A DNA stretch of 64,000 bases from Alkalibacter rhizosphaerae (GTDB taxonomy: Bacteria; Bacillota; Clostridia; Eubacteriales; Alkalibacteraceae). The notes beneath the pieces were generated by a model. The model searched no databases. It was not told where the DNA came from and was given only the letters and a program-made list of their open reading frames with translations. Both the position numbers and the translations under genes were made by a program. Numbering within the stretch: the first letter of the stretch is position 1; every line of letters begins with the position of its first letter. Shown in pieces: positions 1,594 through 45,440 of this stretch. The stretch is taken from assembly GCF_017352215.1 (NCBI RefSeq), contig NZ_CP071444.1, positions 1,178,001 through 1,242,000 on the forward strand, read 5' to 3'.

Positions 1594-2955
1594 CTATTTT
1601 CTCGCCAGCAGAGCAACAGTCTCTACGTGCATGCTTTGTGGGAAATTGTCCACTGGTTGCACTTCCATCACGTCATACTCCGCCGAAAGCATTTGCAAAT
1701 CCCTTGCCAATGTCGCCGGATTGCAGGAAACATAGACTATTTTCTTTGGTTTTGCATCCATGACCGCCTGGATCAATACCTCGTCGCAGCCTTTTCGTGG
1801 AGGATCCAGCACCACATGGTCCGGCTCGATTTTTCGCTCTTTCAACAGGAATATGGCATCTTCCGCCTTCCCATGAAAGAACTCTGCATTTTCAATGCCA
1901 TTGAATGCAGCATTCTCCTTGGCATCACGGACGGCATCTTCGATGGATTCGATCCCATACACGAATTTGGCTTTATGAGCCAGGTACAGGCCGATGGTGC
2001 CCATGCCGCAGTACAAGTCAAAGACCGTTTCCTTTCCGCTCAGATCCAGCATCCGATCCACTGTTTGGTAAATGACTTCCGTCATGGCATTGTTCACTTG
2101 AAAAAAGGACAAGGGAGAGATCTGGAATCTTACGGATCCGATCTCATCCACCAACTTTTTCTCCCCATAAAGCAAATGGTTTTCATAGCCCATGGTCCGG
2201 TTGTTTCTGCCCTTGTTGATGCTGCAATAGATGCTTGCGACGGACCCGTTCTCCTTCGCCAAGCGCTTGGCAAAAGCTTGGATCTGATCGTTGACATCCC
2301 CGTTCCAGACCAAAATCAACATCATTTTGCCCGTTGCCTTGGAGAGCCGCTGGACCACCCCTCGTAATGATCCCTTTCCATTGGTCTCATCGTATATGGT
2401 GATCTTTAGATCCTGAATGGCAGCCTCCAGGCTTTTGATCAGATCCTCTCCGGGATCCTGCTGGATGATGCATTTGTCCAAAGGCACTACATGGTGGGAC
2501 TTCTTTTGGTAGAATCCGACTTTCCCATTTTTGGATATTTTATATTGGGCCTTGTTTCGATAAAAATATGGATCCTCCATACCGATCACATCTTTAGTGA
2601 TCTCCTGGGCATCGGACCGATCCCCCAATCGCTGCAGCACATCCACCACATGATCCCGCTTCCACTTTAGTTGGGCATCATATTGCAGGTTTTGGATCTG
2701 ACAGCCGCCGCACTCACCAAAGTAGGGGCAGGGCGGATCCTGCCGCAGTGGGCTGACTTTATGATACTGTATGGGAACCCCCATGGCGTACTGCTTTTTA
2801 ATAGTAGTCAGGCGCACCCTTACTTCGTCTCCCGGGACGCAATCCTCGACAAACACCGTAAACCCATCCACTTTTCCGATGCCTTCCCCCGTGTGGGTCA
2901 GATCCATGATGGCAACATTATATTCTTCATTCTTTTTGTATTTTATCGTATTCAT
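1594..2955 (-). CDS. rlmD: 23S rRNA (uracil-C5)-methyltransferase, RlmD/RumA family
   Basis: This 453-residue protein methylates uracil C5 in 23S rRNA using SAM. An N-terminal TRAM-like domain is followed by the 4Fe-4S cysteine cluster (C-x5-C-x2-C in CPYFGECGGC, plus the later DKC). The C-terminal Rossmann methyltransferase has FDLYCGMGTIG for SAM binding, DPPRKG, and the nucleophile motif VSCNPATLARD. The frame extends upstream to 3120, but the conserved family sequence begins at MNTIKYKKNE, and the usual family length of about 450 residues supports ATG 2955. A GAAGGG about 14 bases upstream is a weak ribosome site. In Bacillus the homologue methylates two 23S positions; which sites apply here is unknown. 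Confidence 0.93.
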   Translation of the reverse strand: MNTIKYKKNEEYNVAIMDLTHTGEGIGKVDGFTVFVEDCVPGDEVRVRLTTIKKQYAMGVPIQYHKVSPLRQDPPCPYFGECGGCQIQNLQYDAQLKWKRDHVVDVLQRLGDRSDAQEITKDVIGMEDPYFYRNKAQYKISKNGKVGFYQKKSHHVVPLDKCIIQQDPGEDLIKSLEAAIQDLKITIYDETNGKGSLRGVVQRLSKATGKMMLILVWNGDVNDQIQAFAKRLAKENGSVASIYCSINKGRNNRTMGYENHLLYGEKKLVDEIGSVRFQISPLSFFQVNNAMTEVIYQTVDRMLDLSGKETVFDLYCGMGTIGLYLAHKAKFVYGIESIEDAVRDAKENAAFNGIENAEFFHGKAEDAIFLLKERKIEPDHVVLDPPRKGCDEVLIQAVMDAKPKKIVYVSCNPATLARDLQMLSAEYDVMEVQPVDNFPQSMHVETVALLARK

Positions 2956-3143: not shown

Positions 3144-3824
3144 ATGGCTGTATACAAAACCGGAGAAAAATCAAAAAACAGCATCCTGGAAGCGTGCAAG
3201 GAGTTGTTTTACACCCAGGGTTACAAGGGAACCACATACAAAGACATCTGCGAAAAGGCAAACAGCAACCCGGGGCTCATCAACTACTATTTCAAAACAA
3301 AAAAGAAGATCAGTGAAATCATATATGGCGATTTCTACATGGACATCAAAACCAAAGTAGAAGAGTACATCACCCGTCACCATGGGGACTACGACCTGCA
3401 AGTGGGTACCTGCGTGGAGATCCTCGTGGTCAACAAATTGATGGAAAAGGACAGCAACCTGCAGCGCTTTTACTACGACCTGAGTCTGGAAGGCGTAGAG
3501 TACGACATGAAGGTATTTTACTATTTCTACAAGCTCCACGTGGATCGCTACAACCTGCCCTTGAGCGATGAACAGATCCGCCTGATCTGGGTGGCCAATA
3601 CCTCCATCGGCATCGGGATCTCCAAGAAGTATATGGAAGGGTTTTTCGATATCCCACCACTGGAACTCTACGAATTCCGTATCAAAACCATGTACAATTC
3701 CATGGGCATCGACAACAAGCGGATCGAGGAAGTGATCGCAAAAGCCTATGAGATCAGCGATGATATGGAAGTAACCTTGCATGATTTCTTCGAGATCGAG
3801 CTCCATCGAAACAATTTAAAATGA
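3144..3824 (+). CDS. TetR/AcrR family transcriptional regulator
   Basis: A 226-residue one-component regulator. Residues 8-55 form the TetR DNA-binding domain: KNSILEACKELFYTQGYKGTT, then the recognition segment with DICEKANSNPGLINYYFKTK. The remaining roughly 170 residues are a helical ligand-binding domain rich in Tyr and Phe, whose ligand cannot be predicted. AAGGTGAT lies just before ATG 3144. The gene is divergent from rlmD and followed by a bidirectional terminator. No efflux or metabolic target gene is adjacent, so autoregulation and a distant target are most likely. Confidence 0.9.
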   Translation: MAVYKTGEKSKNSILEACKELFYTQGYKGTTYKDICEKANSNPGLINYYFKTKKKISEIIYGDFYMDIKTKVEEYITRHHGDYDLQVGTCVEILVVNKLMEKDSNLQRFYYDLSLEGVEYDMKVFYYFYKLHVDRYNLPLSDEQIRLIWVANTSIGIGISKKYMEGFFDIPPLELYEFRIKTMYNSMGIDNKRIEEVIAKAYEISDDMEVTLHDFFEIELHRNNLK

Positions 3825-3833
3825 GCATGAAAA

Positions 3834-3857
3834 AGGGGGATGCATAGGCATCCCCTT
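3834..3857. terminator. Bidirectional terminator between tetR and the riboswitch RNA
   Basis: A hairpin with arms AGGGGGATGC and GCATCCCCTT (approximately 10 bp) is followed by TTATTTGTTTT on the plus strand and by CCCCCTTTTT on the minus strand. It ends the tetR transcript and, in the other direction, the c-di-GMP riboswitch transcript. Confidence 0.8.
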
Positions 3858-3882
3858 ATTTGTTTTCAGAAAAGAAAAAAAC

Positions 3883-3974
3883 TCACCCTACGGCTTACTG
3901 GCTGCCACCCGTTCTGATTCGGAAGGCCCTTTAGTTTTGCGTCCTTGCCTTTCGGCAAGTTTGCCCTTTCGTGA
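3883..3974 (-). promoter_or_regulatory. Class I cyclic-di-GMP riboswitch (GEMM-I), no ORF behind it
   Basis: Read on the minus strand, the segment has the GEMM-I landmarks in order: GGGCAAAC, a P2 hairpin TTGCC-GAAA-GGCAA with the conserved tetraloop, GGACGCAAA, a TAAAGGGCCT segment, and the P3 receptor segment GGTGGCAGCCAG. TCAC and GTGA close P1. A U7 run follows P1, then the terminator at 3834-3857. No coding frame lies between aptamer and terminator. Read-through would run antisense to tetR and then into rlmD. The aptamer call is strong; the regulated target is unknown. Confidence 0.85.
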
Positions 3975-3989
3975 TAAGATTCTATCTGA

Positions 3990-4018
3990 ATTATATTTCA
4001 AAATCTCATTCTTTGCAA
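3990..4018 (-). promoter_or_regulatory. Promoter of the orphan riboswitch RNA
   Basis: TTGCAA (4013-4018) and a perfect TATAAT (3990-3995, read on the minus strand) are separated by 17 bases. The predicted start near 3983 gives a transcript of about 150 nucleotides ending at the terminator. Confidence 0.75.
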
Positions 4019-4054
4019 CCATTTTACGAAAATATTTCTCTATCCGACATTTTA

Positions 4055-4139: not shown

Positions 4140-4694
4140 ATGAAAAAAAACATCTTACCATCAAAAGTCATCGTTTATTGCGGTTTGTTCACCGCCCTGA
4201 TCGTGGTCGGAGCATTGACAAGAATACCCGTTCCCATAGTACCTTTTACGCTGCAACTTTTGTTCACCACCCTGGCCGGCATGGTATTGGGCCCGGTCTA
4301 CGGCAGTCTCTCCGTGGTCTTGTACGTCCTTTTGGGGCTGATGGGCCTTCCCGTATTCGCCAACGGCGGCGGCCTCGGATATATTTTCCAACCCACTTTC
4401 GGGTACCTGCTGGCTTTTATTGCCGGAACGGCACTGGTGGGTCATCTGACAAAAGACCCAAAAAAACGCTCCTTTCCCCGTCTTTTTCTGGCCGGCGTGG
4501 CCGGGTTGCTATTGGTTTATGTTGGGGGTTATGTCTACTATTATCTTCTAGCCACCCATGTGCTAGGTTTAACCATCGTGCCGAAAATATTGTTTTTTCA
4601 CGCTTTTCTGCTGCCTCTACCCGGCGATCTGGTTTCCTGCGTCATTGCTTCCATGATCGCACTGCGACTCCCTAAGTTTTCTCCAACCGGCTGA
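4140..4694 (+). CDS. bioY: Biotin ECF transporter substrate-binding protein BioY
   Basis: This 184-residue membrane protein is the biotin-capturing S component of an ECF transporter. It has about six hydrophobic segments and the BioY hallmarks VPFTLQ near residue 37, LGPVYG, and FANGGGLGYIFQPTFGYLLAF. AAAGGA lies before ATG 4140; an in-frame upstream start at 4074 would place the promoter inside the gene, so it is rejected. No ECF ATPase or T component is adjacent, so it probably shares the common energising module (group II) or works alone. The BirA-like operator supports biotin as substrate. Confidence 0.93.
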   Translation: MKKNILPSKVIVYCGLFTALIVVGALTRIPVPIVPFTLQLLFTTLAGMVLGPVYGSLSVVLYVLLGLMGLPVFANGGGLGYIFQPTFGYLLAFIAGTALVGHLTKDPKKRSFPRLFLAGVAGLLLVYVGGYVYYYLLATHVLGLTIVPKILFFHAFLLPLPGDLVSCVIASMIALRLPKFSPTG

Positions 4695-10534: not shown

Positions 10535-12160
10535 TTAGTTCAAAAATGTATAGTTGGATCCTGCCAAGGCCAGGTCGATGGTCCTGTCGAAAATATTTCC
10601 GTCAATGGTGGTTTCCGACAACAAGCCTCCGTTTAGATGAATGGGGATCATGGAGCTGCTTCCGCTGATCTTGTTGTTTGTGATGTAAACATTTTTTGCA
10701 TCTGGATTGTTCAAATATACACCTCTGGAGGTGATCCCTGTCAAGGTATTGGCATTGAACTTGATGGTATCCATATCGTGGGAGTAGCCGCTGCTCCATC
10801 CACCTACAGCATATCCTGTGGAGCAATTTTTGATGGAGTTGTTGTGGATGTTCACATTTCTCAGCAACCCGCTTTTCTCTGTTGCCACTGCTATGCCCTG
10901 TCCACAATTGTATATGTTGTTGCCGTACACTTCGATGTTGCTGGATGTCTTGCTGTAAGCGTCGATGTAAATGCCGATCTTGGCAATATCATGAATGGTG
11001 TTGTTGTAGATCTTTCCATTGGAAGATCCATTCTTGGCGTCAATGGCTTCTCCACCGGCTCCTTGGGTGCTGTTGGTGATATTGAATACCTTGTTGTTTC
11101 GGATCGTAAAGGTGGCCACGTTGGAGATGGAGATGGCTTCTTGGGAGCCAATGGCCGTACAGGCCTTCTCTATGGAGTTCCCGTCTACTGTAATATTGGC
11201 GGCATGATAAAACGCAATGCCGGAAGCTTTCGTATTGTAGGTGGAGCAATTCGTCACGATGACGTTTTGGCTTCCGTTGTTGTCCGGTTGGGATCCGATC
11301 CCACCCCATCTGGAATTGACCACTCGCAACCCATTGATCTTGATATAATGCCTGGAGTTGACATTGAAGAGGGTCCCCCAGCTGTATCCCCAATCGATCC
11401 CGGCGCCGTCGATGACTACCGTGTCACCCGGATAATTGGTGTAAGTAATGTAATTTCCGCTGGAGCCGGAATTTTTCAATACCACCCGTTCATTATAAGT
11501 CCCCGCCTTGATGTAGACGGTCTGACCTGCCTGAAGGGTATTTGCCGCTTTCTGGATGGTTTTCCATGGTGCCGATTCCGTTCCCGGATTGGCATCATTT
11601 CCCGACTTGGAAACGAAGAAAGCTCCTGCAACAGTATTGGCTTTAGGCTCCTCTACCGGAGCCGGTGCTGGTGCTGGTTCCGGCGTTTCCGTTTTCGGTT
11701 CCGTCTGCGTCGTCACAGACGTACTTTCGGAAACTGGCTTTGTCGTTGTTGTGGTACTGCTTGTCGCCGGCTTTGTGGTCGTTGTCTGTGTCGCAGGTTT
11801 TGTCGTGGTATTGTCTTCCCTGGACACCGTGACTTTGTCTGATGTTTTCACATCGTCCTTGGTTGTGGACGCTTTATCCTCTTCTTCATTGGCAGGCGCT
11901 TTTTCTTCAGTCGAGTTCTTTTCTTCCGACGATCCCTCTTGGTCGACTTTTGCGATTGTACCTGTCCCTATATCTTTTGATGCGACATCGAAGCTGTCGT
12001 CTGTTTCGGTCAAGTTTTGAGTTGCCTTGTTGGTCTGATCCTCCGCTTTTCTGGAGGCAAAATCCCTGCTTTCGGTATATGCGTATACCGTTCCTGCAAT
12101 GGTCAGAAGGACCAGGACACTGATGATGCTCCATAGTACTTTTTTGTTTCCTTTTTTCAT
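10535..12160 (-). CDS. Secreted/membrane-anchored right-handed parallel beta-helix protein
   Basis: A protein of 541 residues. Residues 8-28 form a transmembrane helix or uncleaved signal, followed by about 130 residues of low-complexity, Thr/Lys/Glu/Pro-rich linker (TTTKPAT and PAPAPAP repeats) suited to spanning the wall. The rest (from AGAFFVSKSGND) starts with a DUF1565-type SKSGNDANPGT opening and continues as a pectate-lyase-like beta-helix with repeated N-x-I/V strands such as IYNNTIHDI and VNIHNNSIKN. Such folds bind, cut or epimerise polysaccharides. ATG 12160 follows AAAGGAAAG; the frame runs upstream to 12217 without a good site. Its leader holds a c-di-GMP riboswitch. The exact enzymatic activity is unknown. 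Confidence 0.85.
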   Translation of the reverse strand: MKKGNKKVLWSIISVLVLLTIAGTVYAYTESRDFASRKAEDQTNKATQNLTETDDSFDVASKDIGTGTIAKVDQEGSSEEKNSTEEKAPANEEEDKASTTKDDVKTSDKVTVSREDNTTTKPATQTTTTKPATSSTTTTTKPVSESTSVTTQTEPKTETPEPAPAPAPVEEPKANTVAGAFFVSKSGNDANPGTESAPWKTIQKAANTLQAGQTVYIKAGTYNERVVLKNSGSSGNYITYTNYPGDTVVIDGAGIDWGYSWGTLFNVNSRHYIKINGLRVVNSRWGGIGSQPDNNGSQNVIVTNCSTYNTKASGIAFYHAANITVDGNSIEKACTAIGSQEAISISNVATFTIRNNKVFNITNSTQGAGGEAIDAKNGSSNGKIYNNTIHDIAKIGIYIDAYSKTSSNIEVYGNNIYNCGQGIAVATEKSGLLRNVNIHNNSIKNCSTGYAVGGWSSGYSHDMDTIKFNANTLTGITSRGVYLNNPDAKNVYITNNKISGSSSMIPIHLNGGLLSETTIDGNIFDRTIDLALAGSNYTFLN

Positions 12161-12270
12161 TTTTCTTTCCTTTTTTTCTTTATTTGCCGATTTCTTACCG
12201 ACCCTCCAGCTTACCAACCCTCCCGTGGATCAGGGACGCTGCATGTTTCATTGTTGTTTTTACACAATAA

Positions 12271-12366
12271 AAAACTTCCTTTGGTAGCTGGCTGCCATGT
12301 GAAAGGCCCTGTAGCTTTGCGCCCCTGTTTTTCAACAGGTTTGCTATTATCAATTGAAGTTTTATT
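12271..12366 (-). promoter_or_regulatory. Class I cyclic-di-GMP riboswitch (GEMM-I) controlling the beta-helix gene
   Basis: On the minus strand: AGCAAACC, P2 hairpin CCTGTT-GAAA-AACAGG, GGCGCAAAGCTACAGGGCC, then P3 segment ATGGCAGCCAGCTACC. P1 is formed by AAAACTTC and GAAGTTTT, and its 3' arm merges into a U6 run, so the P1 helix itself could behave as a ligand-stabilised terminator. The start codon lies about 110 bases downstream. Whether c-di-GMP switches expression on or off cannot be told from sequence. Confidence 0.92.
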
Positions 12367-34005: not shown

Positions 34006-34125
34006 GATTCCGCAGCGACATACTCTCCCAGGACGTCACCATCCAAGTACCATCTGCGCTGGAGGACTTTACTTCTGTGTTCGGGATGGGAACAGGTGTA
34101 GCCCCTCCGCCATTGCCGCGGAATC
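34006..34125 (-). rRNA. rrf: 5S ribosomal RNA, operon 1
   Basis: About 120 bases closed by GATTCCGC and GCGGAATC, with the conserved internal segments ACACCTGTTCCCATCCCGAAC and CCTCCAGCG. Ends are approximate to a few bases. Confidence 0.95.
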
Positions 34126-34205
34126 ATTTAGTTATAAATCTCATCAATGAGATTTGAAAACTGCATGGGAATCATCGTAAAGTATTCTTCTTCTTATCAT
34201 CTACT

Positions 34206-38838
<4,633 letters not shown>

Positions 38839-39245
38839 AAATAGTGTTTGAGTCCGTCTTAGAACTCTCTTTGGCTTTTGATGCTTTTGGCATCAACGTT
38901 GTTTGGTTTCTTTCTTCTAAGCTTGTTTTCATGTGCTATTCTATTTTCAAAGATCTTAAGCATCAGCAGGGATTCTGGCGAGTGATGGCGGAAAGCTTGC
39001 TTTCCGATCATCCTTCGGCGGAAGACCTATTGGGCGCAGCCCACGGACGGAGACCTTCTTCGAAGGTCGAAGTCTGTTGATGCTTCCTGCTCCACTCCCC
39101 TTACCCGAAGGTTGAGGTCAGCTGAAGCGCTATGAAACTGTGTCCCTCCCGCCTGCTTTCCTCTTCCAAAGTCCGCTGACACGAAGGTTTGTCGCCCTTT
39201 ATGTTGTCTCGTTCGTTGTTGGCATCTCTTGTGGCGACTCTTACT
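38839..39245 (-). other. rRNA leader with a branched hairpin structure, operon 1
   Basis: The 400-base leader between promoter and 16S holds a boxA-like GATCTTTGAAAATAG (about 38942-38956) and a four-arm structure. An outer stem pairs 38959-38968 with 39075-39084 (9 of 10). Inside it are CGGAAAGC/GCTTTCCG (38989-39006), TGGGC/GCCCA (39031-39043) and GACCTTC/GAAGGTC (39052-39068). It probably serves antitermination and 16S processing, but it is larger than a simple leader. Confidence 0.7.
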
Positions 39246-39274
39246 ATTATACGCATCACCCTACCACGTGTCAA
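39246..39274 (-). promoter_or_regulatory. Promoter of rRNA operon 1
   Basis: Perfect TTGACA (39269-39274) and TATAAT (39246-39251), 17 bases apart, with an A-rich UP-like stretch upstream. A weaker second promoter, TTGAAT (39402-39407) with an 18-base spacer to TATTAT (39378-39383), lies between it and the cbiZ stop. Confidence 0.9.
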
Positions 39275-39416
39275 CCGCTTTTTTATCTTTTTTCTCCACT
39301 TTCCTACAGAAAACTCGAAACCCTTGCAATACAAAGGTTTCAAAAGGTTGATCCTATGGATTGTGACTCCGTGTAAGATAATAGATACCCGGGTTAGTGT
39401 CATTCAAACATTTTTT

Positions 39417-40508
39417 TCAGAACAATCCCAACATGCGTTGACACAACCAGATCGTAAATTCTTCCATCAAGCACTTGTGCAGATCCGTCAAGTCAGCAAG
39501 ATCATGACCGTATCGTTTGCTTTCATCTACATGGATTTCATTCAATAAATTTCCGGATTCATTCACCACCACTTCTGGCGTAAGTAGATCCCAATGCATT
39601 TGGTCCAACAAATGAGCAAGCATGGAAGCTTTTGCAACCAATGCCGGATCTCGGTCCATTTGCTGCCACTTCTCATTTGCCATATGCCGGTCTATATCTT
39701 TGGCGAGATCCTCACATTTTTTCAAGACATCTTCTCCACGAAAACCAAAACGCATCAATCTTTTTTCGATGGAACACTGCTGCTTTGCATCCAACCCTGC
39801 GTGGTTGTAAAGAGACTCTTTCACTCCACGGTTTACAGTGATCCCGATCAGTTCGCCCAACTTGCTGTGCTTCCCTGCAAACATCAGTCTGTTCTTCGCC
39901 AAACCATTACAAACAATAATTGTTTCATCGGTGCCAGTTCCTGTTGCCAATTCGTGGGAGTAAACACTATGGGCCATCAATTCTTGAAGGGCGGCCGTCT
40001 TTGCCTCCGTGGCAGTTACGATGCAGCGAGCCATGGTCCCCGGATTCAAGTCCTGGTTGATCACCAACATGATGTTGATGGTTCCGGATACCAACTCTAC
40101 CGGCACACCGTTTTCTTCATGAAACCAGGCCGGATCTCCGACCCTTGCGGCATTCCCAGCGATCCCTGCTGTTACAATGGCTGTTACCGTCAAATCTTTG
40201 TAGCTTTCCTCTATGATGGCAACATGTTCCATGTTTACCGTTGTAGAAATCGCCACTGTGCGTTCTTCATCCAACTTCATCTGTTTAGCAACCAGTTTCA
40301 AGTCATCTACATAGGTTTCCGAATCTTGACAATAAGCACTGCCATTCTCCGGAGTGGAATCAAAGTTCATGACATGCGCAATGCTTTCCTGATATCCTCC
40401 ATTCAAATGGGCTGTCGAAAGTACTTTTCTTCCATCTTTTAAATGAACGATCAAAGCCCTTGAATATTTGTGAACCGTATCTCCCATATCCATTGTATAG
40501 ATCTTCAT
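39417..40508 (-). CDS. cbiZ: Adenosylcobinamide amidohydrolase CbiZ family protein
   Basis: A 363-residue protein. Residues 10-240 match CbiZ, which cuts the amide of adenosylcobinamide during corrinoid salvage: KVLSTAHLNGGYQESIAHVMNFD, TTVNMEHVAI, VTAGIAGNAARVGDPAWFHE, GTINIMLVINQDL and ATGTGTDETIIV. The last 120 residues are an extra helical part not typical of the short archaeal enzyme. AAGGGGGCATTTT precedes ATG 40508, and TATAAT at 40538-40543 is a likely -10 box. It is the only gene between the two rRNA operons, with no other cobalamin gene nearby. Confidence 0.85.
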   Translation of the reverse strand: MKIYTMDMGDTVHKYSRALIVHLKDGRKVLSTAHLNGGYQESIAHVMNFDSTPENGSAYCQDSETYVDDLKLVAKQMKLDEERTVAISTTVNMEHVAIIEESYKDLTVTAIVTAGIAGNAARVGDPAWFHEENGVPVELVSGTINIMLVINQDLNPGTMARCIVTATEAKTAALQELMAHSVYSHELATGTGTDETIIVCNGLAKNRLMFAGKHSKLGELIGITVNRGVKESLYNHAGLDAKQQCSIEKRLMRFGFRGEDVLKKCEDLAKDIDRHMANEKWQQMDRDPALVAKASMLAHLLDQMHWDLLTPEVVVNESGNLLNEIHVDESKRYGHDLADLTDLHKCLMEEFTIWLCQRMLGLF

Positions 40509-40569
40509 AAAATGCCCCCTTATCGACTCATGACAATATTATATAGTAATTTGAAGAAAAATGAACAAA

Positions 40570-40600
40570 CAAAAAACCCCCGGTATAAAACCGAAGGTTT
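40570..40600 (-). terminator. Terminator of rRNA operon 2
   Basis: Same hairpin and U-rich tail as operon 1; it separates 5S from the cbiZ promoter. Confidence 0.88.
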
Positions 40601-40608
40601 GATGTGTG

Positions 40609-40728
40609 GATTCCGCAGCGACATACTCTCCCAGGACGTCACCATCCAAGTACCATCTGCGCTGGAGGACTTTACTTCTGTGTTCGGGATGGGAACAGGT
40701 GTAGCCCCTCCGCCATTGCCGCGGAATC
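40609..40728 (-). rRNA. rrf: 5S ribosomal RNA, operon 2
   Basis: Identical to the operon 1 copy over its length as read here; the first difference appears just upstream of it (TTTAG against TTTGG). Confidence 0.95.
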
Positions 40729-40808
40729 ATTTGGTTATAAATCTCATCAATGAGATTTGAAAACTGCATGGGAATCATCGTAAAGTATTCTTCTTCTTAT
40801 CATCTACT

Positions 40809-43724
<2,916 letters not shown>

Positions 43725-43916
43725 TCTTTTGTTTCGTTTCCGAAACGATAGATGTTTAGATGATCGTTTGTTTCTTTACTTTACTTTTTCTTCCTATGCA
43801 GTTTTCAAAGATCACTGAGGATCAGCCGTGTTCCTGTGTGGTGCCGATCCAGCGTCATACGTTTGAGAAATACAAAGATCTCTCAAAATAAAATAGCACA
43901 TTACTCACTTGCTCCC

Positions 43917-45440
<1,524 letters not shown>

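Follow-up and report, generated by a model that had tools for sequence, protein, structure and literature searches.

A gene-less c-di-GMP-I riboswitch unit of Alkalibacter rhizosphaerae and its relatives, with a conserved hairpin as the candidate working part of a proposed trans-acting small RNA

The window, that is, the whole stretch of 64,000 nucleotides analyzed from Alkalibacter rhizosphaerae (contig NZ_CP071444.1, positions 1,178,001 to 1,242,000), carried on its minus strand, between 3830 and 4018, a promoter, a c-di-GMP-I aptamer, a U7 run, a terminator hairpin, and a T5 tract, and this unit contained no gene (Table 1). Such a gene-less array had been described in an earlier reading made from the sequence only, and it was confirmed. 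The aptamer scored above the RF01051 gathering cut-off of 35 bits, with an E value of 4.6e-7 when the whole window was searched, and the promoter was the sole exact match to its sequence in 64 kb, with no match in 100 shuffles. The start of transcription is predicted near 3983, which would give an RNA of approximately 154 nt. The hairpin had a folding energy of −14.9 kcal/mol and was followed by C and T5, while the folding of the whole RNA showed a moderate advantage over shuffled sequences (z −1.98; 7 of 200 were as good). Elsewhere in the window, the minus strand of 34007-45440 held two complete tandem rRNA operons with near-equal model scores.

Table 1. Positions of the RNA unit and its neighbours in the window, with the promoters found at the corresponding locus of family genomes
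Feature	Positions	Strand	Basis
Promoter, TTGCAA-17-TATAAT	3990..4018	-	motif scan
c-di-GMP-I (GEMM-I) aptamer	3889..3975	-	RF01051, 51.1 bits
Outer stem P1, 5' strand CUUAUC	3973..3978	-	by eye
Outer stem P1, 3' strand GGUGAG	3882..3887	-	by eye
U7 run directly 3' of P1, proposed ligand-stabilised stop	3875..3881	-	sequence
Hairpin GGGGATGC-CTAT-GCATCCCC, also the terminator stem	3836..3855	-	most conserved part
Terminator T5 tract	3830..3834	-	sequence
Convergent TetR-family regulator gene (tetR), neighbour outside the unit	3144..3824	+	Pfam TetR_N, E 8.1e-10
Divergent bioY gene, neighbour	4140..4694	+	Pfam BioY, E 8.8e-37; two-component operon there in relatives
Promoter, G001, TTGCAT-17-TATTAT			by eye
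Promoter, G002, TTGCAA-17-TAACAT			by eye
Promoter, G005, TTGCAC-17-TAATCT			by eye
Promoter, G003, TTGTAA-17-TAATAT			by eye

The corresponding locus was compared among six genomes of the family, namely, that of the window (G000) and five others (G001–G005), which were searched for the aptamer and for TetR. The combination of promoter, aptamer, U-run, and hairpin was present in four of the six (G000, G001, G002, and G005), which represent two genera. In the three relatives, the aptamer lay downstream of tetR and was oriented towards it, with a similar promoter, a run of U6-7, the same hairpin, and no gene ahead of the terminator. In G003, which is a fragmented metagenome-assembled genome, a matching promoter and hairpin were found with the aptamer absent (L083, about 1600-1760, minus strand). 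In G004, tetR stood beside two-component genes, and neither the promoter–aptamer unit nor the hairpin was present. A search of G003 and G004 for a degenerate aptamer gave no match to a c-di-GMP family at E values up to 5; the 12 and 1 matches obtained, respectively, all belonged to other families and were below the cut-off, the top one being a plant-type microRNA model (E 0.0003, 29.9 of 66 bits). The retention of the parts at the corresponding locus in four of six genomes supported the earlier view of a stand-alone, terminated RNA that is not simply decaying. Moreover, a model combining the aptamer with the hairpin (R1) was built from the four orthologous units and scored them at 143.7–171.2 bits. 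Across 67 genomes of the order, the match ranking next was another G005 aptamer, with 103.7 bits, and in a 391-genome sample of the class nothing outside the family exceeded 93 bits; the two genome sets overlap, and both searches used strict filters. One class match (G105) was considered as a composite RNA and rejected as an ordinary tandem leader.

The neighbours of the unit were less constant. Orthologues of tetR in the five other family genomes were 49-70% identical to that of the window (51-70% in the genomes bearing the unit). In G001–G005, response regulator and histidine kinase genes adjoined tetR or the RNA, as assigned by Pfam for the G002 pair and by sight for the rest, while in the window genome about 0.49 Mb separates the RNA (1181889) from the response-regulator orthologue (1668114; 88% identity). 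In G001, the RNA adjoined the two-component genes, and two ORFs without Pfam matches lay between it and tetR. The distance from the start of the hairpin to the end of tetR was 12 nt in the window, 11 nt in G002, 0.2 kb in G003, 0.3 kb in G005, and 2.6 kb in G001. The unit outlasts its neighbours and is independent of either. As the neighbours change while the unit stays, neither is likely to be its cis target, and this independence speaks against both an antisense RNA to tetR and simple decay. As for the arrangement of aptamer, terminator, and tetR in relatives, the aptamer–hairpin part recurred in four of six genomes and the spacing to tetR did not. A cis-antisense RNA against tetR, which had been suggested from the sequence, would fit the convergent and close arrangement in the window and G002. 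However, the predicted RNA ends before the tetR ORF, an overlap with tetR was not a conserved feature in the relatives, and the gap widens in G005 and G001, so this reading was rejected as very improbable. The related suggestion that the unit and tetR share the terminator held in part, as the hairpin starts just past the tetR stop codon; towards tetR, however, the T-tract (TTATTTGTTTTC) is poor, and T5 lies on the riboswitch side.

The coding potential of the transcript was also inspected. By eye, no ORF within the transcript was common to the four orthologous loci, and neither a gene nor a shared ORF preceded the predicted terminator, whereas a cis-acting leader would be expected to control such a gene. 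The window and G002 share a frame of 29-30 aa through the aptamer, with TTG and ATG starts, which was absent in G001 and G005; a 44-aa ORF (3888-4022) has its start upstream of the -35 box. An overlooked small ORF and a type I toxin were likewise rejected for both strands, as inspection by eye showed none that the four loci share. An Hfq-dependent RNA was rejected because no Hfq match was obtained in six of six genomes, the control search being positive in 5 of 14. No antiterminator pairing between the aptamer and the hairpin was seen by eye.

When the window aptamer was searched alone, the top match of the clan was RF03167 (c-di-GMP-I-GGC; 46.8 bits, E 4e-10), which is below the RF03167 gathering score of 59. 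The three orthologous aptamers scored 60.7, 64.9, and 68.1 bits against RF01051. The window genome contained five c-di-GMP-I aptamers, among which that of the unit was the lowest-scoring and the sole one without a gene; the other four preceded genes for a transglutaminase-domain protein (a tandem pair), a 1271-aa repeat protein, and a beta-helix protein. The last of these is a second aptamer within the window (12279-12354, minus strand; RF03167, 59.2 bits), followed by U6 in the leader of the beta-helix protein (10535-12217), and similar aptamers were found in leaders of G001 (L052) and G002 (L055). Mutual identity among the stand-alone aptamers was 0.60-0.68, lower than within three sets of leader aptamers (0.69-0.93). 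In the P2 stem, three pairs were changed on both sides among the four orthologues, a test on four sequences only, in which the number of pairs was reached by 31 of 500 shuffles and that of cells by 1 of 500. The outer stem P1 of the window, paired by eye, included two G-U pairs, and an automatic helix search picked a different pairing there, so that the pairing of the window P1 is ambiguous; this stem is also weak. The orthologous stems were CUUUUC/GAGAAG in G005 (6 of 6 pairs) and CUUGUC/GGGAAG in G001 and G002 (5 of 6).

In the window aptamer, one additional base adjoins the pocket. Model positions 11 and 83, located by counting from the match ends, were taken to be the Vc2 ligand-contact bases G20 and C92. 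They were G and C in the window aptamer, with the inserted base nearby. Two of the four stand-alone aptamers had G/C at these positions, G001 had U at 83, where the consensus is C, and G005 had A at 11. Among 32 other family aptamers, 24 had G/C, 7 had A/C, and 1, at a doubtful match end, had G/T. Because the stand-alone aptamers are divergent, with the extra base in the window and the changes at position 83 in G001 and 11 in G005, binding of c-di-GMP by the stand-alone aptamers is likely but not certain, and their ligand specificity could differ.

The hairpin was the most conserved part of the unit. In pairwise comparisons of the four orthologues, identity of the hairpin was 85-100%, that of the aptamer 61-70%, and that of the linker 10-50%, and all seven stem pairs were invariant in the four sequences, with the same stem in G003. 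The pattern GGGATGC-N(1-6)-GCATCCC occurred at this locus in five of the six genomes and at just one other place in the whole set, namely, as GGGATGC-CATG-GCATCCC at G000:C1:251544 (L093), after an rpmB-like gene named by sight. GATGC palindromes numbered 12 in G000, compared with 1-4 for seven control half-sites, and 2 in G002, compared with 1-6. As a control, stretches of G000 (800 kb) and G002 (787 kb) yielded 278 reciprocal best gene pairs, so that the comparison covers gene 3' ends of one genome pair. A terminator-like hairpin followed both genes in 22 pairs, and at most 10 bases were common in 21 of these, compared with 24 bases common to G000 and G002 in the hairpin of the unit. The one control pair with an identical hairpin encoded proteins that were 98% identical, which suggests a recent transfer. 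Similarly, the terminator hairpins of three c-di-GMP-I leaders of FapA-like genes (from G001, G002, and G005; Pfam FapA for L014, the others by sight) were unlike each other.

The same palindrome might be a site in DNA, an operator for a protein such as the neighbouring TetR, that terminates the RNA incidentally. A dimer on DNA would not easily tolerate a one-base change in spacing, and the half-sites here are 4 or 5 bases apart among the genomes; the long distance to tetR in G001 also argues against it. Nevertheless, the occurrence of the palindrome at the locus in nearly all of the genomes and only once elsewhere would fit an operator, and Zur was described as binding the terminator DNA of the Bc1 riboswitch (PMC11218506, in excerpt). 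On balance, an operator is considered improbable.

Another possibility is that the RNA is invariably made at full length and serves as a c-di-GMP sink or as a c-di-GMP-bound RNA, with the hairpin as a mere terminator. The precedent is merRNA, the aptamer of which belongs to class I. In Bdellovibrio bacteriovorus, merRNA is 445 nt long, massively expressed, and proposed to store c-di-GMP, and like the window RNA it contains a c-di-GMP riboswitch and no conserved ORF (PMC3627812, in excerpt). Judged from its sequence, the window unit is also a gene-less RNA with a c-di-GMP riboswitch, and the consensus-like promoter, the terminator, and the preservation of P2 through changes on both sides agree with a role of this kind. 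However, the aptamer is the less conserved part of the window RNA and less conserved than leader aptamers, G003 retains the promoter and hairpin with the aptamer gone, and a mere terminator would not need to keep its exact sequence. A merRNA-like role was accordingly regarded as unlikely.

The U-run that follows the aptamer was surveyed in 36 family aptamers; of the 38 detected, two in G005 were set aside for lack of a locus. A run of at least 5 T within 18 nt of the aptamer was present in 19 of the 36, compared with 1.1 expected, and in 4 of 24 aptamers from other families of the order, compared with 0.7 expected, the 24 being the best-scoring matches and not a random draw. In 17 of the 19 cases, the run was located 5-9 nt after the match, beyond a 3' strand able to pair with the 5' flank; in L038 and L044, it began at the aptamer end without P1. 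In L003, L037, L045, and L047, the run lay by eye between a Shine-Dalgarno-like stretch and the start codon, where it may serve as a spacer. Since 4 of the 19 runs are spacer-like and 2 lack P1, a U-run need not be a terminator. Two U-run aptamers of G005, by contrast, lay 202 and 396 nt ahead of a flagellar rod-protein gene, and a scan of the 220 nt following each showed no further terminator; the stand-alone RNAs, too, precede no gene. The U-run after the outer stem may represent a family-wide expression platform in which the aptamer itself is the terminator stem.

Two other arrangements were observed in the course of the survey. In L087 (about 3265-3400; aptamer G000:C1:1813264), L017, L038, and L051, the aptamer 3' strand can pair by eye with a downstream strand that is followed by a U-run. 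In these leaders, the ligand should turn ON the production of a large secreted protein, in contrast to the proposed OFF platform. At L049 (G004:C15:19370), an aptamer and U-run were found, and no ORF of 80 aa in the same direction occurred within 1500 nt, so that this is possibly a second gene-less RNA.

The likeness of the platform to that of family gene leaders raises the question of whether the unit is the leader of a gene that was lost in the ancestor of the family, with the remainder persisting by chance or because it insulates convergent genes from each other. The low score of the aptamer in the window genome and its absence from G003 and G004 would agree with such an origin. However, the unit was kept in four genomes, between which tetR has diverged and the neighbourhoods have changed, with its stem invariant. 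A lost leader may be the origin of the unit but leaves the conservation of the hairpin unexplained; as a full account of the locus, it appears quite unlikely.

Of the readings considered, the one preferred here, tentatively and with somewhat less than an even chance of being correct, is that the locus encodes a c-di-GMP-gated, trans-acting small RNA of about 154 nt with the hairpin as its working part. The hairpin is proposed as the trans-acting part because its sequence is conserved beyond that of the aptamer and linker. Transcription would begin near 3983, and the aptamer would fold before the remainder of the RNA is made. With c-di-GMP bound, the stabilised P1 and the U7 run would act as a terminator and leave a stub of about 109 nt, as the family-wide layout of P1 plus U-run suggests; a P1 stem stabilised by the ligand and followed by a U-run would thus work as an OFF switch. 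At low c-di-GMP, the polymerase would continue and the hairpin GGGGAUGC-loop-GCAUCCCC would be made, which would end the RNA and, as its conservation suggests, bind a putative protein or RNA partner in trans. In G003, where the aptamer is missing, the hairpin RNA would be made without control.

Several points count against the gated-RNA reading. The aptamer is the weakest of the five in its genome and changes fast, G003 lacks the aptamer and G004 the unit, and P1 is weak. Further, a similar stem follows the rpmB-like gene, and GATGC palindromes are frequent in G000. The Bc1 riboswitch of Bacillus thuringiensis also counts against it, since its terminators are also close together and its genes were reported not to respond to c-di-GMP (PMC11218506, in excerpt). 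Bc1 resembles the window unit in that two terminators, separated by 28 bp, follow a c-di-GMP-I aptamer, but it precedes genes, and both of its terminators are typical rho-independent ones, of which the second masks the first (PMC11218506, in excerpt). In the window unit, the first terminator would be P1 of the aptamer with the U-run, and the second would be part of the product.

A known system with this layout is EutX/Rli55 of Enterococcus and Listeria, in which AdoCbl causes the RNA to end early, at the aptamer, so that the dual hairpin bound by EutV is lost (PMC5821096, in excerpt). Like the window RNA, EutX/Rli55 is gene-less and has its own promoter and a separate downstream hairpin element; its terminator at the end of the aptamer corresponds in layout to the proposed stop at P1 and U7. 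It acts in trans and free of orientation, according to the same excerpt, whereas trans action of the window RNA is proposed from comparison of the sequences. The ligand and aptamer also differ, and the dual hairpin for EutV contrasts with the single hairpin here, which has a loop of 4-5 nt; with one conserved hairpin only, the window unit does not have the dual hairpin recognized by EutV (ANTAR). By analogy, the unit could be a decoy or guide RNA of the EutX type, in which an aptamer acting as terminator gates a conserved 20-nt effector hairpin and from which one relative has shed the gate, although this more specific version is rather doubtful.

The sequence-only reading had placed known c-di-GMP-I riboswitches in the 5' leaders of genes, which is not always the case, as merRNA and Clostridioides difficile provide counterexamples. 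In C. difficile, an orphan c-di-GMP-I riboswitch lies between CD2517 and CD2517.1, and others precede the RCd11 and RCd12 antitoxin RNAs (PMC11477304, in excerpt). These are, like that of the window, clostridial c-di-GMP-I aptamers without a protein gene. The excerpt assigns no role to the orphan riboswitch and describes the riboswitch promoter of RCd11/RCd12 as dispensable. RCd11/12 are prophage toxin–antitoxin antisense RNAs, unlike the window unit, in which no common small ORF was seen by eye. Gene-less c-di-GMP-I RNAs are thus already known, and the conserved, effector-like hairpin would be the new aspect. A literature search, with most subscription journals outside it, found no published gene-less c-di-GMP riboswitch RNA with such a hairpin and no publication mentioning both Alkalibacter and a riboswitch.

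Trans-acting riboswitch RNAs are few in number. Within the RNA, the comparison presented here separates a sensor that changes faster from a hairpin that is almost invariant, and G003, which lacks the aptamer, provides a natural test case for a sensor-free RNA. The locus thus makes the role of gene-less c-di-GMP riboswitches directly testable. If the proposed reading is true, c-di-GMP would act in trans through a small RNA.
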